A stretch of DNA of 64,000 bases from Fontisphaera persica (GTDB lineage: Bacteria; Verrucomicrobiota; Verrucomicrobiia; Limisphaerales; Fontisphaeraceae). Made by a program: the position numbers and the translations under genes. The notes below the pieces were generated by a model. That model was not told the DNA's origin. It worked only from the letters and a program-made list of their open reading frames with translations, and did no database searches. This document shows, one piece after another, positions 14,048 through 34,685 of the stretch (its first letter is position 1; every line of letters starts with the position of its first letter). Location: assembly GCF_024832785.1 (NCBI RefSeq), contig NZ_CP116615.1:3224001-3288000 (forward strand), given 5' to 3'.

Positions 14048-15049
14048 ATGAATCCTGGGCTGTCTTATCCGGCGGTGTTGCTGGCGCGGGAGGCCATGGC
14101 CACGCGCTTCGAGCTGGTGTTGCCAGGAACCCCCTCGCCCTCGTTGCGCGCTGCCGGGGAGGAGGCCCTGGAGGAAATTGCGCGCCTGGAGCAGCTTCTG
14201 AGCCTTTACCGGCCTTCCAGTGAAATCGCGCATGTCAACGCCCGCGCCGCCTGGGAGCCAGTGCGGGTCAGCCCGCCGGTGTTTGAAGTGTTGTGGCGCG
14301 CCCGCCAATGGCATGAGCGCACTCAGGGCGCCTTTGACATCACCATCGCCCCCTTGTTGCGCTGTTGGGGATTCATGGGCGCCGAAGGCGCCATGCCCGA
14401 CCCGGTGGCGGTCCAAGCCGCCCGCGCCGTTACCGGCATGCACTGGGTGGATTTGGACCCGGCAGAAATGACGGTGCGCTTCCGCAAGCCCGGCGTGATG
14501 GTGGATTTGGGCGGCATCGGCAAAGGATATGCCCTCGATTGCGCCATCGCCATTCTCCGCGAGGCCGGCATCACCCATGCCCTGCTGCACGGCGGCACCA
14601 GCTCCGTTTATGCCTTGGGGGCGCCGCCAGATACCGGCGCCTGGCGCCTGGCCATCGAATCGCATCCGCTCCAACCCGGACAGGCCAAAATCCCGCTGGC
14701 CGTCGTGGAGTTGCGGGACCAGTCACTCACCGTCAGCACCATCTGGGGCAAACATTTCCAGAAAAACGGAAAAACCTACGGCCACATTCTGAATCCGCGC
14801 ACCGGCCAGCCCGCCGATGCCGCGCTGTTGAGCGCCGTGATGAGCACCTCGGCCACGGATGGCGACGCGCTGGCCACCGCGTTGATTGTGGATGGTAAAC
14901 AGCACCACGCCCGCCTTGGCCAGAGCCTGCCTGGACTCAAAACCCTGGTGGCGTGGGAAGCGCCCGAGGGCGGACGGCTGCAGGTCGCGGCGCGGGGGCT
15001 GCCCCTGTTGCCCGATGCCCAGGCCGAACTGGTTTATTGGGAACCTTGA
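14048..15049 (+). CDS. ApbE-like FAD:protein FMN transferase
   Basis: ApbE proteins transfer FMN from FAD to threonine residues of redox proteins such as NqrB/NqrC and RnfG. The 333-residue product has the core motifs: LYRPSSEIAHVNA, FDITIAPLL, VDLGGIGKGYALD, GGTSSVYALG, and GHILNPRTGQP followed by the Asp-containing ATDGDALATAL metal site. There is no signal peptide or lipobox; classic ApbE is a periplasmic lipoprotein, so this copy may act in the cytoplasm or use a different exporter. It directly follows a terminator, so it needs its own promoter, none of which is obvious in the few bases available. No target flavoprotein gene is nearby. Confidence 0.88.
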   Translation: MNPGLSYPAVLLAREAMATRFELVLPGTPSPSLRAAGEEALEEIARLEQLLSLYRPSSEIAHVNARAAWEPVRVSPPVFEVLWRARQWHERTQGAFDITIAPLLRCWGFMGAEGAMPDPVAVQAARAVTGMHWVDLDPAEMTVRFRKPGVMVDLGGIGKGYALDCAIAILREAGITHALLHGGTSSVYALGAPPDTGAWRLAIESHPLQPGQAKIPLAVVELRDQSLTVSTIWGKHFQKNGKTYGHILNPRTGQPADAALLSAVMSTSATDGDALATALIVDGKQHHARLGQSLPGLKTLVAWEAPEGGRLQVAARGLPLLPDAQAELVYWEP

Positions 15050-19091: not shown

Positions 19092-20525
19092 ATGCCGATC
19101 GAGAAAATTATTGTTCTCGAAGACGACCTGATTGTCCGCAAAAACCTCGAGCAACAGCTTCGTTCCCGTCGGTATGACGTGGCCGCGGTGGAAACCATTG
19201 CCGCCGCCGAGGATTATCTGGCCCGCGACAATTTTGACCTGTTGATTGCCGACATCCGCCTGCCGGACGGGGACGCCACCGATTTGCTCAAGCGGCTCAA
19301 CACCCGTCCCGTGCGCCCCCTGGTGGTGATGATTTCCGGATTTGCCACGGTGGAATCCGCCGTGGAGTGCATGAAGGCCGGGGCGTTTGATTATCTCATC
19401 AAACCCTTCAGCGCCGAGCAACTGGAGGTGGTCATTCGCAAGGCCGCCGAGTTCACCCAACTGCTCCGCGTCAACCAGTTTTACGGGCGCCAGACCGAGG
19501 ACGAAGACGCCTCCCAGCTTCTCGGCCAGAGCAAGGCCATGGAAGACCTTCGCCAGCTCATTCGCCGTGTGGCGCGCACCGAGGCCACCGTCCTCATCCA
19601 GGGCGAAAGCGGCACGGGCAAGGAACTGGTGGCTCGCGCCCTGCACCAGCAAAGCCCGCGCAGCGGCGCCCCCTTCATCAAGGTCAATTGCGCCGCCATT
19701 CCCGAAAATCTCATTGAAAGCGAGTTCTTCGGCCACGAGAAAGGCGCGTTCACCGGCGCCCTGGCCAAACGCGAAGGCCGCTTCGAGCTGGCCCACGGCG
19801 GCACCATCCTCCTGGATGAAATCAGCGAAATCTCCCCCGCCGTGCAGGCCAAACTGCTGCGCGTCCTCCAGGAGCGCGAATTTGAGCGCGTGGGCGGCAA
19901 CCGCACCGTCAAGGTGGATGTGCGCGTCATCGCCACCACCAACCGCCATCTCGAGCAAAGTGTGGCCCGCAAGGAATTCCGCCAAGACTTGTTCTTCCGC
20001 CTCAACGTGGTGCCCGTGCAGGTGCCGCCACTGCGCCTGCGCAAGGAGGACATCCTGCTGCTGGCCCGCCATTTCATGCAGCGGTTCATGCGCAAACACG
20101 GCGTCAAAATCACCGGCCTCTCCCCCGCCAGTGAATCCGCGCTTCTGGAACACGATTGGCCCGGCAATGTGCGCGAGCTTCAAAACGTCATCGAACGCGC
20201 TGTCATTCTCGGCGGCGACAGCGGCATGATTGAGCCCGAGCACCTGGGGCTGATGCGCAGCCTGACCCTGCCGCCGCCCGCCCCCGCCGCCGAAGGTTCC
20301 GGCGTTGCGGCAACGCCTGCCCCCGCCCCCGCGGCGCCGCCCCCGCCGCAGGAAGTCATCCCGCTGGCGGAGCTGGAAAAGCGCCACATCCTGGCGGCCC
20401 TGGAAAAATGCGGCGGCAACCGCACCCATGCCGCCCGTTTGCTGGGCATCAGCGTGCGCACCTTGCGCAACAAACTCCATGAATACAACCCCGCCGAGGC
20501 CGACAAGGAAGGAGAAGACACTTGA
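19092..20525 (+). CDS. NtrC-family sigma-54-dependent response regulator
   Basis: A 477-residue activator with three domains. The receiver has DD near residue 11, phospho-acceptor Asp54 in DLLIADIRLPDG and the lysine in IKPF. The AAA+ domain has Walker A GESGTGKE, the sigma-54 contact loop GAFTGA and Walker B ILLDEISEIS. A Pro/Ala linker (PPPAPAAEG) leads to the Fis-type helix-turn-helix GNRTHAARLLGISVRTLRNKL. It activates sigma-54 promoters when phosphorylated. Its kinase is not adjacent; the GAF-GAF kinase at 10627 is the closest candidate. As the last gene of the envelope cluster it may control that cluster, but I saw no convincing -24/-12 element. Confidence 0.93.
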   Translation: MPIEKIIVLEDDLIVRKNLEQQLRSRRYDVAAVETIAAAEDYLARDNFDLLIADIRLPDGDATDLLKRLNTRPVRPLVVMISGFATVESAVECMKAGAFDYLIKPFSAEQLEVVIRKAAEFTQLLRVNQFYGRQTEDEDASQLLGQSKAMEDLRQLIRRVARTEATVLIQGESGTGKELVARALHQQSPRSGAPFIKVNCAAIPENLIESEFFGHEKGAFTGALAKREGRFELAHGGTILLDEISEISPAVQAKLLRVLQEREFERVGGNRTVKVDVRVIATTNRHLEQSVARKEFRQDLFFRLNVVPVQVPPLRLRKEDILLLARHFMQRFMRKHGVKITGLSPASESALLEHDWPGNVRELQNVIERAVILGGDSGMIEPEHLGLMRSLTLPPPAPAAEGSGVAATPAPAPAAPPPPQEVIPLAELEKRHILAALEKCGGNRTHAARLLGISVRTLRNKLHEYNPAEADKEGEDT

Positions 20526-21926: not shown

Positions 21927-22178
21927 CCCGCTCTGCCTGGCATTCGCGCCTTGCCCCGGCAGCCAACGCATCCATGTTCAGGCAGGCGACATCCAGCATT
22001 TTCACCCGGGCCGCAAGGCCTTGCGCTCCGCCCACCATCCATGCGCTCCCGGCCCGGCGGGCAGAGTCTTTTTTAATTTGTCCTTCACTGCTCCCGAAGG
22101 TTATGTTGAAGTGGCAACGCGATGAATGGTAGTGGCTCATCGCCGGGCTTCAGCGTCTGGCCGCGCCGCGGGTGCGAC

Positions 22179-22184
22179 AGGAGG
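22179..22184 (+). promoter_or_regulatory. Strong Shine-Dalgarno sequence deciding the cyclase-like start
   Basis: AGGAGG five bases before the ATG at 22190. It rules out the in-frame ATG at 22172, which lies upstream of it and has no such signal. Confidence 0.7.
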
Positions 22185-22189
22185 CGCCC

Positions 22190-24046
22190 ATGATTACCTT
22201 TGACACCTTGCGCTTGCAGGAGGCCCTGCAACAGGCTGCGACCACTTTGGCGCATTCCCGTCCGCCCGCCGCCCCCTGGCCAGGCCAGCTCCCCAGCAGT
22301 CCCATGGCGGTCGCTGCCGCCACCTCGGCCCTCTTTCTGGCCGACACCGAGTGGAAAAGCGCCGAGGATACCTTGCGCCGGCTGGGGCACCAGGGCCTGG
22401 AATGGCTGGCCCACCATGTCAACGGCGACGGCGGATGGGGCGATACGCCGCGCAGCTTCAGCAACCTTGGCGCCACCGCCCTGGCCTGGGCCGCCTTTGG
22501 ACTGGCCCCGCCGCAGAATCATTTGTTTGCCGGCACCATTCAGGCCGCCGAGCGTTGGATTTGCCAGAAGGCCGGCAACACGGCCCCGGCCATTTTGGTG
22601 CCCATGATTCGCAATCATTTCCGGGGCGACCTGGCCCTGGCGGCCGGGGTCTTGATGACATGCGCGCTGGCGGGCCGCCTGGGGAGCGACATTCGCGCGT
22701 GGCGGCATGTGCCGGCTTTGCCCTTCGAGCGCGGCGCCGTCCCGCCGGAATGGTGGAGCACCGCCCGCCTGCCGGGGGCCAGTTGGGCCATGTCCTTGCT
22801 GCTGGCCGCCGGGCAGGCGCGGCATCACAACCTGGCCGACGGCTGCTTTGCCACCCGGCTGGCGCGCGAATGCTTCCGGGCTTCCACCTTGCGCCGAATC
22901 GAAGCCTTGCAAGCCGAGGACGGAAGTTTTCAGGCCTCCCCCTGGCTCACGGCCCTCACCACCATCGGTTTGCTGGCCGCCGGATATGGGCGGCATCCCG
23001 TCACCGAAAAGGGCATCCGCTATCTGGTGGCCCAAGCTCGGCCGGATGGGAGCTGGCCCATCGTGGCCAATCATGAGGTATGGCTTACGGCGCAAGCCGT
23101 GCAAGTCTCCACCGCCCCCGCGCTGGGGGCCCATCGGCTGCCCGCCTTGAATGAACTCAACATCCTGCGCCGCTGGCTGCTGGCCCGGCAACAACGCGAG
23201 GACGCCGAAGGACTCCGCCAGCCCACCGCCGGCTGGCCAGCCACTTCCCATCCCGGCGCCGCCCCCGACACGCTCAGCACCGCCGAGTCGCTGCTGGCCC
23301 TGCGCGCCCTGGGGGACCCCGGGCCGGAGGTCATCCAAGCGGTCCTTTCGGGGGTGAACTGGCTGCTGGCCGCGCAGAACCGCGATGGCGGGCTGCCCCC
23401 CTTCCGGCGGGGATGGCGCCAGCCCGCCCGAGAACACAGCGGAGCGGAAGAAACCGCGCTGGCCCTGCGCGCCTGGCTGGCCTGGCTGCATGTGCTGCCG
23501 CCCGACCAGCAACACCGCGTGCAGTCCTCCATTCACCATGCCATTCATTTCCTCATGGAGGAGCAGCGCCAGGATGGCGCCTGGTTTTCACGCCATTTTG
23601 GCAACCAATACGCCCACCAGGAGGAAAACCTGACCCTGGGCACTGCCGGCGTGCTCCTGGCCCTGCCGGAGCTGGTGGCGCGCTCTTACTTCGAGCTGGT
23701 TGAACCGCTGAACAGCGGCGTCCTGTGGCTGGTGAAAAACCAGAACAGCGATGGCAGTTGGGGCGGCGGGCATGGCGGCCCGCCCTCCGTGGAAGAAACC
23801 TCCCTGGCGGTGGAGGCGCTCGCCGAGGCGTTGTTGCAACCCGGCCCCTTGTTGTTGGAAACCCGCGAGCAGGTCCGCAATGCCGCCGCCTGGGGCGCCA
23901 ACTGGCTGGTGCGGCAGGTGGAAGGCGGCAAGTGGACCATCCCCGCCCCCCTTGGCCTGCAATGGGGGCAATTCTGGTATTACGATGACCTTTGGCCGGC
24001 TCTGGGCGTTACCCGCGCCCTGGCGAAGATGGCGCGTTTGGTTTGA
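22190..24046 (+). CDS. Squalene-hopene-cyclase-like alpha/alpha-barrel protein lacking the DxDD motif
   Basis: The 618-residue product has the length and repeat pattern of triterpene cyclases. QW-type repeats are visible: DGGWGDTPRSFSNLGATAL, AEDGSFQASPWLTALTT, ARPDGSWP, RDGGLPPF, RQDGAWFSRHFGN and NSDGSWGGGHGGPP. In squalene-hopene cyclase the proton donor lies in PDVDDTA before an LLAL helix. Here the matching segment reads PDTLSTAESLLAL with Asp360 but Leu362 and Ser363 in place of the second and third Asp. The protein therefore probably does not protonate a C=C bond as hopene synthase does. There are no other isoprenoid genes near. Its 3' end overlaps the opposite-strand gene by 38 bases. 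Confidence 0.8.
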   Translation: MITFDTLRLQEALQQAATTLAHSRPPAAPWPGQLPSSPMAVAAATSALFLADTEWKSAEDTLRRLGHQGLEWLAHHVNGDGGWGDTPRSFSNLGATALAWAAFGLAPPQNHLFAGTIQAAERWICQKAGNTAPAILVPMIRNHFRGDLALAAGVLMTCALAGRLGSDIRAWRHVPALPFERGAVPPEWWSTARLPGASWAMSLLLAAGQARHHNLADGCFATRLARECFRASTLRRIEALQAEDGSFQASPWLTALTTIGLLAAGYGRHPVTEKGIRYLVAQARPDGSWPIVANHEVWLTAQAVQVSTAPALGAHRLPALNELNILRRWLLARQQREDAEGLRQPTAGWPATSHPGAAPDTLSTAESLLALRALGDPGPEVIQAVLSGVNWLLAAQNRDGGLPPFRRGWRQPAREHSGAEETALALRAWLAWLHVLPPDQQHRVQSSIHHAIHFLMEEQRQDGAWFSRHFGNQYAHQEENLTLGTAGVLLALPELVARSYFELVEPLNSGVLWLVKNQNSDGSWGGGHGGPPSVEETSLAVEALAEALLQPGPLLLETREQVRNAAAWGANWLVRQVEGGKWTIPAPLGLQWGQFWYYDDLWPALGVTRALAKMARLV

Positions 24047-25352
24047 AGGGGGGCGCTCCCGTTTTGGCTGCTTTCGGCAGCCGGCTCACATGCCGGAAGA
24101 CGGCGCGGCTCAACGGCTTTTTGGGCGAGTAGTGAATCATCATGTCGCGCTCCCGCATCAGCACCCACGGCTCGCGCGGCGCGTAGCCGTTTTTCGTGAA
24201 AACAATGTCATCCGCCACATACACACACATGTGCACCGTCCGGACGTCCTCGCCCATCGGCTCGTAAAGCAGGATTAGGTCTCCAAACAAGTCCGCCTTG
24301 GGCACCATGCGGTATTCCGAGCGCAGGACCTGCTCCTGGAAGCGCGCGTCAATAAACCGGTCTTCCGCTTTGTCTTTGAGGAAGTTGTAGGAAGACCAGA
24401 AACAATCGGGCCATTTTCCCGCGATGGTGTTGGTGGGATGCGGGTAGGAATACAACAACAGACGCGGCACCGGCGGGAAGAACCAGGCCACGTTGATGCT
24501 GCCGCCCTGCGGCAGCCGTTTCAACGACTCCAGCAGCGGGCGCGCTTGCATCGCCCGATTGGGCAGGCCCCAGTAACTCATGAGCTGCTCCAGGTCGCTC
24601 TGCGGGGTGACGCGCAAGTTCAACATGAGGGTATGCACGCGCGCCACCGTCCGGCTGGCCTGCAAGTAATCGTCCGACGAAAACAACCGGGCCAGCGCCT
24701 GCCGGTCGGCAAAACACAGCAGCCCGTCCTTGCGATACATCATGCGCTCCATGATTTGCAAGGCACTGGCGGACAGGTTGTGATGGGCGAACCACTCGGC
24801 AAACTCGGCCCGCACGGCAAACGGATAACAATAGGCCACGTTCAGCTCATGTTCCGCCAGCACCGTATAAATCTTGCCGCGCGGCTCGGAAGGCAGGTCC
24901 CGGATAACTTCCAGCGCCGGCTCCACATAAATCCCTTCGGCCACTACCCGCCACCGTTGCGTATCCAACAAACTGACCTCCAGATTCCTTGGCAGGGCGC
25001 AGCTTTGAATGAACTCCCGCAACCGGGCGGGAGTATAACCGGCAAAAAACCAGGTGTTGGTCTCCGGTGGCGGCGGGTCATATTCAAAATATTCCACCGG
25101 CCGCTCCAACCAGATGGGAATGGTTTCCAACAGGCCCCACCGATTGGTGGCGGATTGTTCCAAAGCGGTCAGTGCGGCCTGATTCGGCTGGCTTCCGGTT
25201 GAAGTCCACAAGGAGCGCCCAAGATATTGCGCCGCCAGCGTAATCAACACCCCGGTTAACACCAACACCATGCTCTGCCACCAATGCCGGCGTGGCAAAG
25301 CGCCGTTCTGCCGGGCTTTCCGCGAAGCCGCTGCACGTCCTTTCACATTCAT
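24009..25352 (-). CDS. Membrane-anchored protein of unknown function
   Basis: A 447-residue protein with basic residues and then one N-terminal transmembrane helix (WWQSMVLVLTGVLITLAAQYLG), leaving a large domain outside the cytoplasm. The domain is mixed alpha/beta with a tryptophan- and tyrosine-rich core (WFFAGYTPARLREFI, NVAYCYPFAVRAEFAEWF, YVADDIVFTKNGY). I recognise no family. The ATG at 25352 is preceded at 6 bases by GCAGG; an ATG six bases further upstream is possible. Its end overlaps the convergent cyclase-like gene. Confidence 0.65.
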   Translation of the reverse strand: MNVKGRAAASRKARQNGALPRRHWWQSMVLVLTGVLITLAAQYLGRSLWTSTGSQPNQAALTALEQSATNRWGLLETIPIWLERPVEYFEYDPPPPETNTWFFAGYTPARLREFIQSCALPRNLEVSLLDTQRWRVVAEGIYVEPALEVIRDLPSEPRGKIYTVLAEHELNVAYCYPFAVRAEFAEWFAHHNLSASALQIMERMMYRKDGLLCFADRQALARLFSSDDYLQASRTVARVHTLMLNLRVTPQSDLEQLMSYWGLPNRAMQARPLLESLKRLPQGGSINVAWFFPPVPRLLLYSYPHPTNTIAGKWPDCFWSSYNFLKDKAEDRFIDARFQEQVLRSEYRMVPKADLFGDLILLYEPMGEDVRTVHMCVYVADDIVFTKNGYAPREPWVLMRERDMMIHYSPKKPLSRAVFRHVSRLPKAAKTGAPPFKPNAPSSPGRG

Positions 25353-25549
25353 AAGCATCCTGCTTCAGCCGGCAGCCGGCAGCGTCCTTCGGTTTTGGAA
25401 CAATAAAAAACAAGTCCACCATCCAGCCGGAAAAAGCACCTGCTGACTGCCGGACTTGAAGGACGCCCGTCCCCTGGGACGCTATACCCCTTCACCCATT
25501 CCATTCAAATAAAGAGACGGGCTTATAGCGGGTGGCGGTTACACAAACA

Positions 25550-25572
25550 ATGCATTTTTAGCGAAAAAGCAT
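25550..25572. other. AT-rich hairpin between the GH2 gene and its downstream neighbour
   Basis: ATGC/GCAT plus TTTTT/AAAAA arms close a 4-base AGCG loop. It lies in the 295-base gap after the GH2 gene and could act as a transcription end or processing signal on the minus strand. It lacks a GC-rich stem, so the call is weak. Confidence 0.3.
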
Positions 25573-25647
25573 ATTTTGCCTCACGCGGCGGCCCATGCGC
25601 GGATTCCGGCCGCGTTGAAGCCCAACAGAAGCATTTTGCGGACCTAC

Positions 25648-28600
25648 CTACCAGACGGTAACTTCCGCCAGCGACGCGAACGGCTGGCGGGTGAAGCCGC
25701 TCAGCGCCTCCAGTTTTAGATACCGTCCCCGGGCAGGGGCGGGAAACCGCAGCTCCTTCGCCGCGGCATCGTTGGACAAGGTTTGCCGCAACACCGGCGC
25801 TCCCCAGACGTCGGGGGAATCGCTCACATAAATGGCACACTCGCGAATCCAGCCATTCCGATTGTTGTCCTGCCGCGGGGCCAAAGTCACGCCCTGCAGC
25901 GCGGCCGTCTGGTTGAACTCGAGGATGAGCCAGTGCGGAAAATTCGGCGCCCCTTCCCCCCACGGGGTATGCCAGAGCGTTTGCGGGTCCCCATCCACGA
26001 CCTGCCGGGCCGGATATTCCGTGTGTTCACTGCTGACCCGCCAGACGCGCGCGCCCAGTTTTTGCGTCAGCGTGGGCGCCGCCAGCAGCGCCTGAACCTG
26101 CTCCGGGGTCCAGCGATGCGCCGGTTGGAAGTGCGGCCCGGCCATGTAATCCAATAAACTGCGCCGCATCTGCCGCGCCACCGGCCGGCGCTCCAAGTCG
26201 CTGTGCAAATCCATCGCGCAGGCCAGCAGCCGGCCCTGGCCCACCCGCATTTCGATAATGAGCCCCAGTTTGCGCGAGGTGAACCAGTCATCAATGGCAT
26301 AAACCACCGGCTGAAACGACCGCGCCGTGCCCGTCAAAATAAAAGGATGCGCCCGCGACACCAGCTCCCACCACTGCCAATTGGAATGGTATTCAGTGGG
26401 AAATTGCGCCAGCGCCGGATGTTGGGGATTGCAGTAGATGCCGAGGGTATGCGGGGCTTGGCGGCGGGTCCACGCGGTGTTCCAGAAGATGCTGGAGAAG
26501 CCCATTTGCACCCGGCCCAACGCGTCCCCGCGAATGGCTTGGGGCGGGGGATTCAACAGCACGCTGCCCCCGCGGGCCAGCACGTCCAGCGCGGCGGCGT
26601 CCAGTTCCGTGGTGAAATGCACACCCGCCGGCGGCGCGGTGCTCACTTGCGGCGGATAAACCCACAGGTCCCAGTCATTGGCGTAAGGCGTGCCTTCCAC
26701 CGCCAGCTCCAGTTTCAGTTTGGCGGGCGCGGCCGCGCCGCGCAGCGGCACCTGGATTTCCCCCACCGGACTGCATACACCGGTGGGCAGGGGGCCGGTG
26801 AACAACTTGCCGGTGGCCAGCGTCCGGCGGCCGTCCGCCAGCCTCCACCGCAAAACGCCCTGCGGCAAATCCTGGGGGGCAAACCACCCCACCTCCAGTT
26901 CCGCCTTCAGCGTCTCATCCGCGGTGTAGAGGCGTTTGGGCAGCCGCGCAATTGGCACCACGGGGCCGGAAAAGCGATGAAACTCCGCAGCGGTGATGTA
27001 GCCCTTGCTGTCCCAAAACGGGTCCAGCACCCCCACCAGCGCCGTGCCCTGGCCGGGGAAATCATGCAAATCCAGCAATTCAAAGCCGGCCATGCCCGGG
27101 GTGCGGATGGCCGATTCAATGTCCTCTTTGTAACAGAGCGCCTGCAGTTTGCCCGAGGCCAGCAGAAAGGCGCGGGCCAGCTCGTCCAGCCCGTTTTGCT
27201 GGAGGAAATCACGGAATATCTCGAAGTTTTTCGGCTTGAGCCAGCCCTTGTACTTGGGCATTTCCGCGAAATTGGGGAACACACACCATTGCCCAATTTC
27301 ATGGCTGACCACCGGTGCTGAGGCCTGCGCGATGTACTCCCGATAATCCGTCATCGTCTCCGGCGGGCGCGCGTTGATGCGCGAATTCAGGCCGCCGCCC
27401 CAGGCCTGAATGCGCGGGTCCGGGGTGATGTGGAAATCATTTTCTGGAATCATGGGCCAGCCGGCGCCGCTGGTGTACAAGCGGCGGGAATCCAGACGCT
27501 TGCAATAGTTGATGAAATCACCCAGCCAGCGTTGCTGGTTTTTGCCCGCTGGCTCGTTGCCCGCCGAAAACATGATGAATGAGGGATGATTGCCCAGCGC
27601 GCGGAAAATGCGCGCGGCCTCCTCGTGCAGCCAGGCGTCCACCTTGCGGCCATCGCCCACACTGCTGCCCTGGTTGGCCCAGACCCCGGCTTCCACGTAA
27701 TACAAAAACCCCAGCTCGTCGGCGGCCTGAAACGCGGCCGCCGGCGGGGTGTGCGAGTGAAAACGAATGTGATTCAATCCATGCGCCTGGCAGATGCGGA
27801 TGATGCGTTTCCAGGCGGCCACGTCGGTGGGCGGATAACCGGTGAGCGGAAAGATGTTGCACTCGAGGGTGCCGCGCAGAAAGAGTTTCCGGCCATTGAG
27901 CGCGATTTGTGTGCCCTGGCGTTTCACCTCGCGCAAACCAAAGGAGACGGTGCGGCTGTCCCTGAACGGGCGCTGGCCTTCGCCCCCTTCCAGCGTGGCG
28001 GTCAGGCGGTACAAGGCCGGTGCAAACTCATCCCACAACAGCGCCTCCGGCCCCAGCTCATAGTCGCATTCCACCGCGCCGCCCTGAGGCGTCCAGGACA
28101 CGGGCACCGTTTGGGGCGGCGGCCGGTGGGTGCGCGGGCTGTTGTAGCTCTGCGCCGCCAGCGTCAACATGCCGCTCCCGGAGCGGCCGGTGAGATTGCC
28201 GAGGCGAGCTTTAATCTTCACGCGGCGTTGCGCCACCTCCGGATAAACCTGCAAATCCTCCACCCATACCGGGTCGGTGGCCTGCAATTCCAGGGCGCCC
28301 ACGATGCCATTCCAATTGCCCTGGGTGTGGTCCGAAACACTGTGCGCATTGACGCCTACTTCGACGTGCAGGCGGTTGTCCACGCGCACGGTCAGGCGGT
28401 GTTTGCCCGGGGCCAGGCCCGTGCCGAGGTCATATTCGTGGGGTGTGCCTAAACTGTTGCAGGAGCCGAGGCGCTGGTCATCCACCCAGACGGTGGTTTC
28501 CCAGTGCGGCCGCTCCAGCCGGAGCACCACGCGCCGGCCCGCCCAGGCGGCGGGAATCTCCACCTCGCGCTGGTACCACGCCACCCCCACGTAATGCCGT

Positions 28601-28947
28601 TCCGGCTGCAGCCAGAACGGCACCTTGATGTTGCCCGGCTGCCGATAAGGGGCATAGCGCGGGTCGGTGAACCACGAGCGGTCCATAATGCTCCCGGTCC
28701 ATTTCGTCTCCACCGTCACCGCATCGCCAAAGCCCTGTTCCTGCAAAGAACCCGGCAGCCGCAACCGCTCCCGCAATGCGCGCCGATGCCAGCCCTCGGC
28801 CACGCCGGCATCCTGGCGGTCCAGTTCAAATCGCCAGGTCCCGGCCAGGTTGATGCGCTCCGGCCCCGTGGCTGCGGCGGCCGCAGCGGTGCAAAGGCCA
28901 GCGGCAGTGAGAGTCAACCAGAAAAAAAGGGCGCGTGGTCGAATCAT
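25648..28947 (-). CDS. Exported glycoside hydrolase family 2-like enzyme with C-terminal F5/8-type C domain
   Basis: A 1099-residue secreted enzyme with a signal peptide (FFWLTLTAAGLCTAAAAA). An N-terminal GH2 sugar-binding jelly roll (INLAGTWRFELDR, WYQREVEIPAAWAGRRVVL) is followed by an immunoglobulin-like region and a TIM barrel. The barrel has the general acid Glu465 in SAGNEP and the likely nucleophile Glu550 in SHEIGQW, 85 residues apart. The last 130 residues look like a discoidin/F5/8-type carbohydrate-binding domain (VVDGDPQTLWHT, GRYLKLEAL). GH2 members are beta-galactosidases, mannosidases or glucuronidases; the specificity here is unknown. The start at 28947 fits signal peptide and promoter. 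It is divergent from the gene at 29079 across a palindromic operator. Confidence 0.88.
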   Translation of the reverse strand: MIRPRALFFWLTLTAAGLCTAAAAAATGPERINLAGTWRFELDRQDAGVAEGWHRRALRERLRLPGSLQEQGFGDAVTVETKWTGSIMDRSWFTDPRYAPYRQPGNIKVPFWLQPERHYVGVAWYQREVEIPAAWAGRRVVLRLERPHWETTVWVDDQRLGSCNSLGTPHEYDLGTGLAPGKHRLTVRVDNRLHVEVGVNAHSVSDHTQGNWNGIVGALELQATDPVWVEDLQVYPEVAQRRVKIKARLGNLTGRSGSGMLTLAAQSYNSPRTHRPPPQTVPVSWTPQGGAVECDYELGPEALLWDEFAPALYRLTATLEGGEGQRPFRDSRTVSFGLREVKRQGTQIALNGRKLFLRGTLECNIFPLTGYPPTDVAAWKRIIRICQAHGLNHIRFHSHTPPAAAFQAADELGFLYYVEAGVWANQGSSVGDGRKVDAWLHEEAARIFRALGNHPSFIMFSAGNEPAGKNQQRWLGDFINYCKRLDSRRLYTSGAGWPMIPENDFHITPDPRIQAWGGGLNSRINARPPETMTDYREYIAQASAPVVSHEIGQWCVFPNFAEMPKYKGWLKPKNFEIFRDFLQQNGLDELARAFLLASGKLQALCYKEDIESAIRTPGMAGFELLDLHDFPGQGTALVGVLDPFWDSKGYITAAEFHRFSGPVVPIARLPKRLYTADETLKAELEVGWFAPQDLPQGVLRWRLADGRRTLATGKLFTGPLPTGVCSPVGEIQVPLRGAAAPAKLKLELAVEGTPYANDWDLWVYPPQVSTAPPAGVHFTTELDAAALDVLARGGSVLLNPPPQAIRGDALGRVQMGFSSIFWNTAWTRRQAPHTLGIYCNPQHPALAQFPTEYHSNWQWWELVSRAHPFILTGTARSFQPVVYAIDDWFTSRKLGLIIEMRVGQGRLLACAMDLHSDLERRPVARQMRRSLLDYMAGPHFQPAHRWTPEQVQALLAAPTLTQKLGARVWRVSSEHTEYPARQVVDGDPQTLWHTPWGEGAPNFPHWLILEFNQTAALQGVTLAPRQDNNRNGWIRECAIYVSDSPDVWGAPVLRQTLSNDAAAKELRFPAPARGRYLKLEALSGFTRQPFASLAEVTVW

Positions 28948-28977
28948 AAGTTTCAGCGTTGCTGATGTTGTGCGGGA

Positions 28978-29006
28978 ATTATGCTTGGAACACCCCGGGG
29001 ATTCAA
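28978..29006 (-). promoter_or_regulatory. Sigma-70 type promoter of the GH2-like gene
   Basis: On the minus strand TTGAAT (29006-29001), 17-base spacer, CATAAT (28983-28978): four and five of six consensus bases. The predicted start near 28971 leaves a 24-base leader. Confidence 0.6.
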
Positions 29007-29013
29007 CTTGAAG

Positions 29014-29031
29014 TTTGGCGGACCCGCCAAA
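29014..29031. promoter_or_regulatory. Perfect palindromic operator between two divergent promoters
   Basis: TTTGGCGG (29014-29021) and CCGCCAAA (29024-29031) around AC. It sits 7 bases from the -35 box of the GH2-like gene and 4 bases from the -35 box of the gene at 29079, so one regulator could control both. The regulator is not identifiable here. Confidence 0.6.
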
Positions 29032-29035
29032 ACAC

Positions 29036-29064
29036 TTTACACCACGGGGGGCTGCCTCAATAAT
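29036..29064 (+). promoter_or_regulatory. Sigma-70 type promoter of the concanavalin-like gene
   Basis: TTTACA (29036-29041), 17-base spacer, AATAAT (29059-29064), each five of six consensus bases. The predicted start near 29071 would leave an extremely short leader before the ATG at 29079. Confidence 0.55.
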
Positions 29065-29078
29065 TTGCGCAAACACGC

Positions 29079-30002
29079 ATGAAACGCTTCCTCGCTTGTG
29101 CCCTGCTCATGGTGGGTGGCATGGCAGCCACCGTTGCCGCTGCTGAACGTTTCCCCAATCTCGCCGCGCAAAGCCCTTTGCCCCGCGGCAACGGCCTGGC
29201 CGCGAAATTCAAGGCCGATGCTGGCATTGCAGCGCATCCGGCCGTCCTCTTCGCGGATAATTTCGAGGAGGGAGAATTGGGCGCGCGCTGGGATGAGAAG
29301 GGCGCCGGCAAGGGCAAAGCGCTCAGCCTGGTGGCGCCGCATGACCCGCGCTGCGGCCAGCGCTGCCTCAAGGTGGAAGCGCGGCTGGGCGAGAATCAGG
29401 GCGATGGCTTGACCCAATGGTACACCCCCGCCGACCCGGTGTTCATCCGGTTTTATGTGAAGTTTGACCCCAACTGCGATTATGTGCATCACTTCGTGAC
29501 CCTGCGCGCCAACCGTGGCTTGCGCGGGGCGGACCGGTGGAGCGGCTTTGGCGGGGCGGGATTAAAACCCCGCGGGGACGAGCGGTTTTCCACCGCGCTG
29601 GAGCCGTGGGGCAACTGGGGCAAGTGGCCGCCGCCGGGAAAATGGAATTTTTACAGCTACTGGCATGAAATGGAGGTCTCGCGGGACGGCAAATATTGGG
29701 GCAATTCATTTCAGGCCGAACCGCAGGACAACATCCCCAAGAACCGGTGGATTTGCGCCGAGTTCATGCTGAAGCACAACACCCCCGGCCAGCCGGACGG
29801 CGAGCAGGCGTTTTGGATTGATGGAAAACTGCTCGGCCACTGGAAGGGCATCAACTGGCGCACCTCGGCCACGCTGCAGGCCAATGCGCTGACCCTGGAA
29901 AGCTACGTGACCGACCGCTGGACCAAAAATCCCACCAACACGGTCTATTTTGACAACCTGGTCATAGCCCGCGAGTACATCGGGCCGGCCGGCGTCCCTT
30001 GA
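29079..30002 (+). CDS. Secreted concanavalin A-like (polysaccharide-lyase-like) protein
   Basis: A 307-residue protein with a signal peptide (FLACALLMVGGMAATVAAA). The mature part is beta-rich with DNFEEGELGARWDEKG at the front, a central YTPADPVFIRFYVKFD strand pair, and GEQAFWIDGKLLGHW followed by VYFDNLVIAREYIGP at the end. This jelly-roll pattern is seen in LamG/concanavalin-like domains and in polysaccharide lyase families such as PL14-like and PL20-like proteins. I cannot assign a catalytic site. Divergent transcription from the GH2-like gene with a shared palindrome suggests both act on the same polysaccharide. Confidence 0.65.
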   Translation: MKRFLACALLMVGGMAATVAAAERFPNLAAQSPLPRGNGLAAKFKADAGIAAHPAVLFADNFEEGELGARWDEKGAGKGKALSLVAPHDPRCGQRCLKVEARLGENQGDGLTQWYTPADPVFIRFYVKFDPNCDYVHHFVTLRANRGLRGADRWSGFGGAGLKPRGDERFSTALEPWGNWGKWPPPGKWNFYSYWHEMEVSRDGKYWGNSFQAEPQDNIPKNRWICAEFMLKHNTPGQPDGEQAFWIDGKLLGHWKGINWRTSATLQANALTLESYVTDRWTKNPTNTVYFDNLVIAREYIGPAGVP

Positions 30003-30010
30003 AAAAAGAA

Positions 30011-30034
30011 AGGGACGCCGTTCAAGGCGTCCCT
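30011..30034 (-). terminator. Rho-independent terminator after the HtrA gene
   Basis: Nine-base stem AGGGACGCC (30011-30019) / GGCGTCCCT (30026-30034), loop of six. On the minus strand it is followed by TTCTTTTTTC. It lies 36 bases beyond the HtrA stop codon and lacks a T-run on the plus strand. Confidence 0.85.
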
Positions 30035-30070
30035 CCTGCTCTCGCGTAACCCCGGCCGCACCTTTGCGGC

Positions 30071-31564
30071 TTACCGGTTGGCCGGCGCCTCAATCACCAC
30101 AAACCGCATGGCGCCATCCCGATACACCCGCAGGAGCAACCGTTGGCCGCGGGCCTTTTGGGCCGCTTCAAACGCCTCGTCGGCATTGGCCACGCGCTGG
30201 CGATTGATTTCCACGATGACATCGCCGGGTTGCAACGCGCCGGCCGCCGGAGAGTCAGGGGCCACGCTGAGCACCACAGCGCCCTGCACATCCAGCGGCA
30301 GGTCAAATTGCCGCCGCGTGCGGGCATCGGGATTGCCCAAATCCACGCCCCGCAGGGCATCGCTGCTGCCACGCCGGCCGGGCCAGCTCCAACCGCCACT
30401 GCGGGCCAGGCCCTCGGACGGCAGCTCGCCAAGCTTGGCGGTGAGGGTTTGCTCCTTGCCGTCGCGCACCACTTTGAGGGTCACCTTGCTGCCGGGGGCC
30501 GTCTGGGCCACCATCAGCCGCAGATGGCGGCTGTCGGTCACTTTTTTACCATTGAATTCGAGGATGACATCGCCCTCCTTCAAACCGGCCTCGGCGGCGG
30601 GTGATTTGGCGGTGACTTCGCTCACCAGCGCGCCCTGGGTATCTTTCAATTTGAACTCTTTGGCCAGCGCGTCCGTGACCGGCTGGATGAGCACCCCGAG
30701 GTAGCCGCGGGTCACTTTGCCGTCGGTAATGAGGCGGTCCATCACGTACCGCGCCAGGTTGATGGGCACGGCAAAGCCCACGCCCTGGTTGCCGCCGCTG
30801 CGGCTTAAGATGGCGGTGTTGATGCCCACCAGACGGCCTTCCGCATCCACCAGCGCGCCACCGCTGTTGCCGGGGTTGATGGAGGCATCGGTTTGGATGA
30901 AATCTTCATAGTCCACAATGCCCATGCCGCCGCGGCCCTTGGCGCTGACAATGCCGGCGGTGACTGTCTGTCCCACGCCAAAGGGATTGCCAATGGCCAG
31001 CACCAAATCGCCCACTTCGACCTTGTCACTGTCGCCCAACGTAATGGCGGGCAGTTTGCCATTCTCCACCTTCAGCACCGCAATGTCCGTCTGCGGGTCT
31101 TTGCCCACCACCTTGGCGTTAAGCACCGTCTTTTCATCCGCCAGCGCCACCTTGATTTCATCCGCGCCGTCCACCACGTGATTATTGGTCAGGATGTACC
31201 CATCCTCGGTCACAATGACCCCGCTGCCCAGGCTCTGCTCGCGCCGCTCGCGCGGCAGCCGTTCGCCACCCCACGGGTCCCCAAAGAAATGCCGGAAAAT
31301 GGGGTCATCAAAGAACGGCATGACCATCACGGGCTCCTTAACCCGCTTGGTGGTGTAAATGTTCACCACGCTGGGCGCGGCCTTCTTCACAATCGGCGCC
31401 AAACTGGTCGCCGCCTTCACCGAGGGCGACAACGGCGCGTCATTTACCACCACTTTCGGCGCGGACGCCGCCCAGGCCCGCGTCATCAACGGCGAGTGCT
31501 CCACCGCCAGCCAAACCAAAGCCGCTGCTGCCAATCCGCCTGCTGCCAACCGCCATATTTTCAT
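30071..31564 (-). CDS. Periplasmic serine protease, HtrA/DegP family
   Basis: A 497-residue protease/chaperone with an N-terminal signal anchor (LAAGGLAAAALVWLAVEHS). The trypsin-like domain has His in ILTNNHVVDGA, Asp in QTDIAVLKV and Ser in NPGNSGGAL. Two PDZ domains follow (GYLGVLIQPVTDALA with GDVILEFNGKKV, and SPAAGALQPGDVIVEINRQRV). It degrades or refolds damaged envelope proteins. The MPFFDDPIFRHFFGD segment before the protease core is the usual HtrA LA-loop-like region. GGAGGA (31571-31576) lies six bases before the ATG. Together with the Hsp20 gene upstream on the same strand it forms a protein-quality-control pair, although a terminator separates them. Confidence 0.94.
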   Translation of the reverse strand: MKIWRLAAGGLAAAALVWLAVEHSPLMTRAWAASAPKVVVNDAPLSPSVKAATSLAPIVKKAAPSVVNIYTTKRVKEPVMVMPFFDDPIFRHFFGDPWGGERLPRERREQSLGSGVIVTEDGYILTNNHVVDGADEIKVALADEKTVLNAKVVGKDPQTDIAVLKVENGKLPAITLGDSDKVEVGDLVLAIGNPFGVGQTVTAGIVSAKGRGGMGIVDYEDFIQTDASINPGNSGGALVDAEGRLVGINTAILSRSGGNQGVGFAVPINLARYVMDRLITDGKVTRGYLGVLIQPVTDALAKEFKLKDTQGALVSEVTAKSPAAEAGLKEGDVILEFNGKKVTDSRHLRLMVAQTAPGSKVTLKVVRDGKEQTLTAKLGELPSEGLARSGGWSWPGRRGSSDALRGVDLGNPDARTRRQFDLPLDVQGAVVLSVAPDSPAAGALQPGDVIVEINRQRVANADEAFEAAQKARGQRLLLRVYRDGAMRFVVIEAPANR

Positions 31565-31591
31565 AAGTCATCCTCCGTTTGCATGATTTCC

Positions 31592-31619
31592 ACCTGCGTT
31601 GTCCGCAGGTCTTTTTTTT
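31592..31619 (+). terminator. Hairpin plus T-run antisense to the HtrA leader
   Basis: ACCTGCG (31592-31598) / CGCAGGT (31604-31610) followed by C and eight T on the plus strand. There is no plus-strand gene to terminate here, so it may stop antisense transcription, or on the minus strand act as a leader hairpin upstream of the HtrA gene. Confidence 0.5.
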
Positions 31620-31715
31620 CCGTTTAGACCCTGCCCGCCTGAATTTGCTCAACGATTTGCTCCCTGCCGCCACCCAGCCTCCTCCGTCCTCGCGTAAAAT
31701 CACTGGCGGGCGGCG

Positions 31716-31753
31716 CGAAAAAGGCGGACCGCGTGGCCAGCACCCGGTCCGCC
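31716..31753 (-). terminator. Probable terminator after the Hsp20 gene
   Basis: Nine-base stem GGCGGACCG (31723-31731) / CGGTCCGCC (31745-31753) with a 13-base loop. On the minus strand it is followed by TTTTT. It lies 8 bases after the Hsp20 stop codon. Confidence 0.7.
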
Positions 31754-31761
31754 GTTCACCC

Positions 31762-32223
31762 TTAATTGACCTTGACTTCGATCTGTTTTGGACGGGCCTT
31801 CTCGCTCTTGGCCAGGTGCACCCGCAGCACCCCATCCTTGAACTCCGCCTCCACCTTGCCCTCTTCGGCGTCGCTCGGGATGATGAAGCTGCGCTCGAAC
31901 CGGCCATAGCTCCGTTCCACCCGATGGAACCGGCGCCCTTTCTCCACCTTCTCGGACTTGCGTTCACCGGAGATGGTCAGGGTGCCATCTTCCACCGTCA
32001 CCTTCACGTCGTCCTTCTGGACTTCCGGCAGCTCCACCTTGATGAGGTACTCTTTGTCGTCCTCCAGGATGTCCACCGCCGGCGCCCATTCAGGCAGCGT
32101 GAGGCTTTCCTCCGAGGCCGTCAGGGAGCTGCGACGAAAAGGCGCCAAGTCAAAGACCGAAGCCAAACGTTTCTGCAACTCCTCCATTTCTTTGAACGGA
32201 TTCCAACGAGTCAATGCAGTCAT
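31762..32223 (-). CDS. Small heat shock protein, Hsp20/alpha-crystallin family
   Basis: A 153-residue holdase chaperone that keeps unfolding proteins soluble. The N-terminal arm MTALTRWNPFKEMEELQKRLASVF is typical of bacterial class A Hsp20. The alpha-crystallin domain has EYLIKVELPEVQKDDVKVTVEDGTLTISGERK-type strands, GRFERSF, and the conserved A-x-x-x-n-G-V-L motif as FKDGVLRVHL. The C-terminal ARPKQIEVKVN contains the short I-x-V anchoring motif. GGAGGA lies seven bases before the ATG. I found no CIRCE element; heat regulation is not evident from the upstream sequence. Confidence 0.93.
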   Translation of the reverse strand: MTALTRWNPFKEMEELQKRLASVFDLAPFRRSSLTASEESLTLPEWAPAVDILEDDKEYLIKVELPEVQKDDVKVTVEDGTLTISGERKSEKVEKGRRFHRVERSYGRFERSFIIPSDAEEGKVEAEFKDGVLRVHLAKSEKARPKQIEVKVN

Positions 32224-32645
32224 AGTCTGTTCCTCCGTCTTGTCCTGGCGGATTTCATCTCAGCTACCAGACCGGCTCCGCCAAACCGATTTGGCAACCG
32301 AGCTTGCCTCCGACTTGCTCCACCCGGAGCTGCGGAGCAAGCTCGCTTGTTGCACTAACAAGAAGCATACCAACCCTATCTTCTGGTAATGTGCATACTC
32401 AAATTATTGATTATGAATAATTTACAAAAATTGACTCTTGAATTGACCAAATCAACAAAGGCCAATGTGACACAACAATGTGTTATAATGGCACGAATGT
32501 ATTTATTTTCTAGGATTCTTCAAAATGTGTCACCATGGCCATTTGAAGGGCCAACACGGCTGATATATCTCGTTGCGATATTTCATCCTGCTTCCAACAA
32601 CTTTTTACCGACCTTGGTGTATATTCAGTTGGGAACGGTCAAACC
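32224..32645. other. Gene-free, locally AT-rich region with a -10-like box inside inverted repeats
   Basis: About 420 bases without a convincing gene; base composition falls sharply between about 32380 and 32640. TATAAT at 32484-32489 is directly preceded by ACACA-ACAA-TGTGT (32470-32483), and GTGACAC (32467-32473) is mirrored by GTGTCAC (32527-32533). No good -35 box is present at the right distance, which would fit an activator-dependent promoter for the gene at 32646. A short open frame starting at 32389 has no protein-like features. Confidence 0.4.
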
Positions 32646-33566
32646 GTGCTGACTTTGCTACATAAGAAGACGTGGACCATGCTGGCCCTGGCTGGGGGAT
32701 TGATGACTGCGCTGGCGGCCAGTGAGCCGGTGATGGACCGGTTTGCCGGCATTCCGGACCGCAACGCCTTCGGCCTGCGTCCGCCGCCCCCTCCCGCGCC
32801 GCCTCCCAAAGCGGAGCCGCCTCCGCCGGCTGTCAAAGTGCAGGTCACCGGGCTGCTGGATTTCAAGGTGCGCAAGACGGCCATTTTGTTGGTGACGGAA
32901 ATGGGGAAACCGCCGGTCTCCGTGGTGCTGGGCGAAAACGAATCCGATGGACCGGTGACGGTGAAAAGCATTGACGCCGAAAACGGCAAGGTCCGCATTG
33001 CCCTGAACAACTCCGATACGGAGCTGGACATTGAAAAGGATGGCATCAAGCCCACGGCTTCCGGCGGAGGCAGGGCAGATTTGCAACTGGGGGGGTCGGC
33101 AGAAGCAGCGCCGCGTCCTTCCGCGTCCCAGATTTTTGCCGGGGCCGCGTCGGCCGGGGCTCCTAGCGTGCCGGAGGTCAACCGCGGCAACTTGGCAGCC
33201 TATTTGCGCCAGGCTTCGGAAGGCGCCAGCAAGAGCGCTGGCAGCGCGCCGGCACCGCTCCTGGGCGGTTACGGAGCGGCGCTGCCGCCCGGGCTGGCCG
33301 GGTCGCACACCTTCCGCTTTGACGGGCAGCCGAATATCGGCCCCACCCAGCCCAACTGGCCGCCCGAACAACCGGTGAGCTACGAGGAATCCATCATCCA
33401 CATGGAAATCCTGCGCACGCTCAAGGATACCGGCAAAATGGAGCTGCCACCCTTGCCGCCCACCATTTTGACCCCGGGCCACGAAGAAGAGATGCCGCCC
33501 GTGCCCGGCGGCCAGCCCCATCAAGGCCCGCCCGGCCTGCCGCCTCTGCCACCTATTCCGCGCTGA
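32646..33566 (+). CDS. Exported GspC/PilP-like protein
   Basis: A 306-residue protein starting with GTG, which gives a signal peptide with two lysines (LLHKKTWTMLALAGGLMTALA). DRNAFGLRPPPPPAPPPK is followed by an 85-residue beta-rich domain (VKVQVTGLLDFKVRKTAILL, GPVTVKSIDAENGKVRIAL). That F/LFGL-proline linker followed by a small all-beta domain with a per-strand G pattern is the layout of the GspC homology region and of PilP. The C-terminal half is disordered and rich in Gly, Ala and Pro. It may couple to a type II secretion or type IV pilus system encoded elsewhere; no other component is in the window. The 3' end overlaps the convergent AraC gene by 46 bases. Confidence 0.55.
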   Translation: MLTLLHKKTWTMLALAGGLMTALAASEPVMDRFAGIPDRNAFGLRPPPPPAPPPKAEPPPPAVKVQVTGLLDFKVRKTAILLVTEMGKPPVSVVLGENESDGPVTVKSIDAENGKVRIALNNSDTELDIEKDGIKPTASGGGRADLQLGGSAEAAPRPSASQIFAGAASAGAPSVPEVNRGNLAAYLRQASEGASKSAGSAPAPLLGGYGAALPPGLAGSHTFRFDGQPNIGPTQPNWPPEQPVSYEESIIHMEILRTLKDTGKMELPPLPPTILTPGHEEEMPPVPGGQPHQGPPGLPPLPPIPR

Positions 33567-34582
33567 TGCGGTGGTGCGGTGTCCGCAGTCTTTTGGGCCG
33601 GCGTTTGCAGGGGATACAACCCCGGGCAGCAGCCAAAACGCTCCCGAAAAGCCTGGCTGAAATGGCTGAAGCTCGAATACCCCACTTCCAGCGCCACCTC
33701 GCTGACATTGCCTTTTCTTTCGCGCAACAATTCCGCCGCGCGGTCCAGCCGCAAATCACGCAAATACTGGAATATGCCGCAGCCCATGATTTGGGCGAAA
33801 ATGCGGCTTAAATAACAGGGGCTAACCCCCACCTTCCGCCCGATTTGCTCCAGGGTCAGCGGTTCGGACAAATGCTCCCGCAAATACGCCGCCACCGCCA
33901 GGGCGCGCTCCTGATTCAAGCGCTGCAAACGCGACTGGGCCGCTTCCTGTGCTTCATGCTGTTCGGGTGACAGGAGAAACAAGCTGGCGGCTTCCAGCAC
34001 CTTGGCCAGGTACCATAAGCGTGCGGTGCCGCAGGAGGCAGGAGGCTGGCGCAATCCCGCCATGAGCCAGCGATGCGCCTCGTTCAACCGCACGGCTGGC
34101 GCAAGGGCCGTGCGGGCACGGCCGGCCATGAGCTGGCGAACCGCCGGATGCCACTGGGTTGGATCAAAACTTTGCTGCCGCAAAAAGGCCAGCGACAACT
34201 CGATGGTGATGAATTGATGCCGCTGCCCGCCGGCCCGCTCGGCCTGCAACCGCGCCCGGCGGCGTCCGTAAAACGCGGCCGTCTCGGGTTCCAATTGCAC
34301 CTCTCCGCTCCCCGAGGGCGCCCAAACCCGTCCCTGGCCGGACAGATTCAGGCAAATTTCCACGCCTTCCGCATGAAAAGCCGGCCCCCAGTTCAAGGGC
34401 TGGGTGAGGGTGAAGTCGTGCCATTCCACGCTGAAGCCCAGGCGATGGAAATTTCCGTGCAAGGGCTGCCAGTCGGCCTGGGCTTCACGCCAGACGGCGG
34501 CCTCCGAAAAGGGGCACACTGCAGGGCCGTCCGGTTGGGAGACCGGGCACGGCAGCGAATGGGGACATTGGCGCAGACCCAT
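33521..34582 (-). CDS. AraC-family transcriptional regulator
   Basis: A 353-residue regulator. The C-terminal 100 residues hold two helix-turn-helix motifs: LTLEQIGRKVGVSPCYLSRIF and VSEVALEVGYSSFSHFSQAFRERFG with the AraC signature. The N-terminal domain (FSVEWHDFTLTQPLNWGP, EVQLEPETAAFYGRRRARLQA) resembles the ligand domain of PchR-type regulators, which respond to siderophores or related ligands. ATG 34582 was preferred to one at 34639 because the extra 19 residues look non-coding. It lies 103 bases downstream of accA on the same strand. Target genes are not apparent. Confidence 0.87.
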   Translation of the reverse strand: MGLRQCPHSLPCPVSQPDGPAVCPFSEAAVWREAQADWQPLHGNFHRLGFSVEWHDFTLTQPLNWGPAFHAEGVEICLNLSGQGRVWAPSGSGEVQLEPETAAFYGRRRARLQAERAGGQRHQFITIELSLAFLRQQSFDPTQWHPAVRQLMAGRARTALAPAVRLNEAHRWLMAGLRQPPASCGTARLWYLAKVLEAASLFLLSPEQHEAQEAAQSRLQRLNQERALAVAAYLREHLSEPLTLEQIGRKVGVSPCYLSRIFAQIMGCGIFQYLRDLRLDRAAELLRERKGNVSEVALEVGYSSFSHFSQAFRERFGCCPGLYPLQTPAQKTADTAPPHQRGIGGRGGRPGGP

Positions 34583-34685
34583 GGCAGCGGGAACGATGGC
34601 ACAATTGAGATTGAGTCTCAAGTGCAAAATACACCGCAATCAATCTCCAATGGGGTCACTTCACCCTCCTCTCAGAACGGCCTCC

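Follow-up and report, generated by a model that had tools for sequence, protein, structure and literature searches.

Ordinary divergent sigma-70 promoter pairs of bacteria consist of two full promoters on opposite strands of a short gap. Gaps that are shared by divergent genes are also where the operators of LacI, TetR, MarR, and similar dimeric repressors are located. A different layout is that of the bidirectional promoters described by Warman et al. 2026 (PMC12825309), which share a pseudo-symmetric -10 element; separate divergent promoters are, according to that paper, not categorized as bidirectional. For the Verrucomicrobia, our literature search found no paper on a divergent promoter with a palindrome.

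Here, we analyzed a stretch of 64,000 nucleotides from Fontisphaera persica (the window), in which a GH2 gene and a gene encoding a protein with a predicted lectin fold point away from each other across a short gap (Table 1). The arrangement as such is ordinary and represents a known kind of divergent promoter pair. As in other divergent sigma-70 pairs, there are two full promoters on opposite strands of a short gap, here with 17-base spacers; the locus differs from such pairs in that the sister species lacks the pairing. The presence of an inverted repeat between two divergent promoters resembles the operators of LacI/TetR/MarR-type regulators, but in this case there is no adjacent regulator gene and no second close site, and the repeat does not occur in the sister species. 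With the bidirectional promoters, the locus has in common that divergent transcription would issue from one short region, whereas the -10 element that those promoters share is replaced here by separate -10 boxes, with 75 bases between them, and by -35 boxes that stand back to back, with 29 bp between them. Our preferred reading, to which we assign a probability of roughly 0.63, is that two independent promoters were set back to back by a rearrangement and that the palindrome between them is probably incidental.

Table 1. Positions of the divergent genes, their putative promoters, the inverted repeat, and the closest regulator genes discussed in the text (window coordinates).
Feature	Position	Strand	Description	Basis
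NtrC-type response regulator gene	19092-20525			
GH2 gene	25648-28947	minus	product probably secreted, C-terminal F5/8 type C domain	domain matches, signal-peptide-like start
Gap between GH2 gene and lectin-fold gene	28948-29078		131 bp, at synteny breakpoint relative to the sister species	
GH2-gene promoter	28978-29006	minus	TTGAAT (29006-29001), 17 bases, CATAAT (28983-28978)	promoter scan
Inverted repeat	29014-29031		TTTGGCGG-AC-CCGCCAAA, arms 8, spacer 2; function doubtful	
Lectin-fold-gene promoter	29036-29064	plus	TTTACA (29036-29041), 17 bases, AATAAT (29059-29064)	promoter scan
Lectin-fold gene	29079-30002	plus	product probably secreted, predicted jelly-roll (concanavalin-like) fold	AlphaFold2 model
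AraC-family regulator gene	33521-34639	minus	4.5 kb from the palindrome	

Each strand of the gap carries a -35 and a -10 hexamer of sigma-70 type. The 17-base spacers of both promoters, as well as the distances of 7 and 4 bases between the inverted repeat and the -35 boxes of the minus and the plus promoter, respectively, are as read in the original prediction. Its wording "near-consensus hexamers" is fair for the plus promoter, which matches 10 of 12 consensus bases, and generous for the minus promoter, which matches nine of 12. The "perfect 18-bp palindrome" that it described is, strictly, an inverted repeat of 8 + 2 + 8 bases and not perfect over 18 bp, the central AC being asymmetric. In simulations of the gap (n = 5,000), a promoter match of at least nine of 12 bases was obtained on either strand in 5.5% of cases and on both strands in 0.12%.

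The GH2 frame is open upstream as far as a GTG at 29076, and a codon-based gene caller starts the gene at this codon, so that the inverted repeat falls inside an over-long GH2 frame. We set the GH2 start at 28947, because a signal-peptide-like N terminus, recognized by eye, begins there; the inverted repeat is therefore counted as intergenic, against the gene caller, and the gap as coding sequence was set aside on the same ground. An RNA element was rejected as well, the only Rfam match with an E value of up to 1 in the region 28600-29400 having a score of 19.2 bits, compared with a gathering threshold of 34.5, and falling outside the gap. A phage origin of the gap was dropped upon a search of the phage collection, which gave no match.

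Both gene products look secreted and are probably carbohydrate-active. For the GH2 protein, the nearest NCBIfam model is exo-beta-1,4-galactosidase BT4151 (1157.5 bits, below the cut-off of 1500), and among solved structures, the best match by sequence is the GH2 protein 8u01 (E = 2.6e-286, residues 30-948). The lectin-fold protein has no Pfam or NCBIfam match at an E value of 0.001, and sequence searches gave no convincing solved relative. Its AlphaFold2 model, made from 23 sequences (mean pLDDT 86.3, pTM 0.86), has alginate and glucuronan lyases as its nearest solved folds. These lyases occupy all of rows 1-8 of the structure list, with many other jelly-roll proteins lower down, and the match to 5gmt_A has an E value of 7.1e-12 and a TM score of 0.55 by query and 0.62 by target. 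Because the predicted model matches these lyases and other jelly-roll proteins, the earlier label "concanavalin-like" is fair at the level of the fold. Among 28 records of relatives of this protein, 25 are labeled as Verrucomicrobia or its subgroups and three as Planctomycetes groups.

The sister species (G001), the only genome of the same genus that was compared, has orthologues of both proteins, with identities of 85% (lectin-fold) and 83% (GH2). The promoter of its GH2 gene (L036) reads TTGAAT-17-CATAAT, with hexamers and spacing identical to those in F. persica, and that of its lectin-fold gene (L006) reads TTTACA-16-CATAAT, i.e., with a spacer of 16 bases. This retention of both promoters in the sister species is the main support for the claim of two divergent promoters, belonging to two secreted and probably carbohydrate-active proteins; the promoters are probably real. 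The same two regions, each scanned over the promoter to slightly beyond its -10 box and over the 150 bases that precede its -35 box, lack inverted repeats with arms of 6 or more bases and a spacer of at most 8. Since the promoters are kept and the repeat is absent, each promoter goes with its own gene, and the palindrome, in that species, with neither. With one same-genus genome for comparison, the absence is compatible with loss as well as with gain. What comes closest there is a near half-site, CCGCAAAA, with one mismatch in 8 bases, about 85 bases before the -35 box of the sister GH2 gene; being a single half-site, it is a weak argument against an incidental palindrome.

In the sister species, the GH2 and lectin-fold genes are not neighbors. 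They are found on separate contigs, each with different immediate upstream neighbors, which places the 131-bp gap at a synteny breakpoint. The sister GH2 gene lies in contig C27, at least 68 kb from either end, and the sister lectin-fold gene in contig C51, at least 8.4 kb from either end and with 36 kb on the upstream side. Directly upstream of the latter is a sulfatase gene, of which F. persica has no close orthologue, the best-scoring match being 42% identical. The two genes directly upstream of the sister GH2 gene are ones that we take to encode HypE and HypD; HypE/HypD-like genes in F. persica are located 44.6 kb further right than the GH2 gene, and the breakpoint stretch, from 28948 to L076:9545, puts this distance between the GH2 gene and the genes that precede it in the sister species. 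To the left of the gap, the genes at 22172-28947 are collinear with C27, and to the right, those at 29079-32358 are collinear with C51. The right side is a mosaic, in which pieces at approximately 32.7-44 kb match C27, C55, C67, and C56.

Outgroup loci gave no decision on the direction of the rearrangement; in our reading, the rearranged genome would be that of F. persica and not that of the sister species. No GH2 relative was detected in 28 loci of lectin-fold homologues, which had flanks of up to 4 kb, several of them shorter. Among the matches listed for 58 genomes, the two genes share a contig in one other genome (G006), where they are 35 kb apart; this is a weak count, because many contigs are short and the matches are listed in part.

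One idea suggested by this position is that the palindrome is a scar or the trigger of the rearrangement, either as the end of a mobile element or as a hairpin where the junction formed. Its location inside the gap where synteny with the sister species breaks is consistent with this, as is the mosaic of matches to several sister contigs in the right-hand stretch; however, searches with the 131-bp gap gave no further match in its own genome and none in the phage collection, and we regard a scar or trigger as very improbable.

Repeats of this kind are common in the window. Those that are perfect, with arms of 8 or more bases and a spacer of at most 8, occur 35 times, whereas 20 first-order Markov simulations of the window gave 16.3 on average; those with a spacer of at most 2 occur 12 times, compared with a mean of 6.7. 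By the gene caller, 12 of the 35 are intergenic, and TTTGGCGG-AC-CCGCCAAA makes thirteen. The probability that a random 131-bp gap of like composition holds such a repeat is 0.026 (0.009 for a spacer of at most 2), and the approximately 8,500 intergenic bases of the window lead to an expectation of one or two. For the 29 bp between the -35 boxes, the probability is 0.0021 (0.0009 for a spacer of at most 2), a value that was computed after the place had been seen; this is the best argument for a function of the palindrome, and it is post hoc. Elsewhere in the window, an intergenic cluster of inverted repeats extends over 1856-2674, in which TCACGGAGCC...GGCTCCGTGA occurs twice (1878-1901 and 2628-2651), alongside a repeat with 14-bp arms at 2199-2227; this cluster resembles a repeated extragenic palindrome or the ends of mobile elements.

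The function that the palindrome might have is that of a private operator, at which a dimeric regulator would bind between the promoters and repress or activate both genes, for this pair only. The layout points in this direction, with 8-bp arms between divergent promoters, both -35 boxes within a few bases (7 and 4), and a place that chance would fill in about 0.2% of cases (post hoc). The repeat is centered approximately 50 bp upstream of both inferred transcription starts, from where it could host a regulator, and the probable roles of both products as secreted, carbohydrate-active proteins, as well as the AraC-family gene 4.5 kb away, are in keeping with such control. Moreover, a lineage-specific gain would leave exactly the pattern that is observed.

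The search for further sites argues against a private operator. The check proposed with the original prediction, whether the palindrome also lies before other polysaccharide genes, had a negative outcome in a scan of the genome (4,726,914 bases), which gave one exact occurrence, none with one mismatch, and seven with two mismatches, compared with nine sites for a reversed control; all seven two-mismatch sites are inside called genes. Six of these seven genes match Pfam families, namely class II (alanyl-type) tRNA synthetase, dihydrouridine synthase, pyruvate:ferredoxin oxidoreductase, dihydroxy-acid/6-phosphogluconate dehydratase, class-V aminotransferase, and AsmA; none of these families is one of polysaccharide breakdown, and the seventh gene has only weak coiled-coil matches. 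In the alanyl-type tRNA synthetase frame (L106:3-2870), residues 306-387 match the IS200-like transposase family PF01797 as well (25.6 bits, cut-off 23), possibly reflecting a domain insertion or a weak chance match.

Looser patterns were no more common in the genome than their reversed controls, with two sites compared with five for TGGCGGNNCCGCCA without mismatch and two compared with two for TTGGCGG-N0-14-CCGCCAA; the second site of both patterns is inside a pyruvate:ferredoxin oxidoreductase-type gene. Within the window, sites with at most three mismatches number four, compared with 1.09 expected, and six of 100 shuffles reach four. The other three of these sites are all in one called gene (14048-15049), where three three-mismatch versions of the palindrome lie within 340 bases (14292-14631).

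Comparison with other genomes gave a similar picture. The exact palindrome is present in one of 320 genomes of the order, F. persica itself, and the reversed control in two of 320; 154 of these genomes reach 90% completeness with no more than 5% contamination. In a smaller set, the palindrome and the reversed control were each found in one of 58 genomes. For 27 lectin-fold homologues (the 28 loci minus the fragment L104), the 300 bases that precede the start of the match were scanned; the best palindrome match there has 5-7 mismatches of 16, and two of the 27 stretches have an inverted repeat of another kind, unrelated to the palindrome, with arms of 8 or more bases and a spacer of at most 4. 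An exact 33-base search of a genome contig collection gave no match, which carries little weight, since the collection may omit the F. persica genome itself.

Thus, the claim of the original prediction that one dimeric regulator acts on both genes through the palindrome is not supported. In the genome, no second site comes within one mismatch of the motif, and none of the other 319 genomes of the order that were searched has an exact copy. No such site precedes either of the non-adjacent orthologues in the sister species or the 27 lectin-fold homologues, and neither further close sites nor an adjacent regulator gene were found. Because the genome holds no other copy, and because the palindrome is absent from a sister species in which the genes are apart, there is probably no shared control switch.

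The accompanying statement that the regulator is not encoded nearby holds for the flanking genes, which are not regulators, and has to be qualified in view of the AraC-family gene and an NtrC-type response regulator gene (Table 1), for neither of which we found a tie to the palindrome. A single-target regulator is usually encoded beside its operator, and the genes on either side of this repeat do not encode one. AraC proteins usually bind direct, not inverted, repeats, and the sister match of the AraC-family gene (70% DNA identity) lies on yet another contig, C55. Taken with the repeat-free promoter regions of the sister species, these observations make a private operator unlikely. It is also conceivable, if rather improbable in our view, that the rearrangement joined unrelated secreted-enzyme genes and that a new operator at the junction couples both in this lineage alone; if true, such a junction operator would represent regulatory coupling born at a breakpoint.

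According to the preferred reading of two independent promoters, each gene would have inherited its own sigma-70-type promoter together with the gene itself. A rearrangement at the gap would separate this genome from the sister species and would have brought the genes back to back here, leaving two ordinary promoters that point in opposite directions, with 29 bp separating their -35 boxes. The repeat would then sit in sequence that is not shared with the sister species, most likely without a dedicated regulator. Both promoters would be active, each gene being transcribed from its own housekeeping-type promoter; assuming a distance of 7 bases from the -10 box, the starts would fall near 28971 on the minus strand and 29071 on the plus strand. 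As these starts would be only about 100 bp apart, two bound polymerases could touch at their upstream edges, and a mild mutual effect of this kind would need no regulator.

The locus calls for caution, in that a textbook-looking operator between promoters can be missing in a sister species while both promoters stay. The two promoters, each conserved across two species of the genus, could help define the promoter rules of the group.
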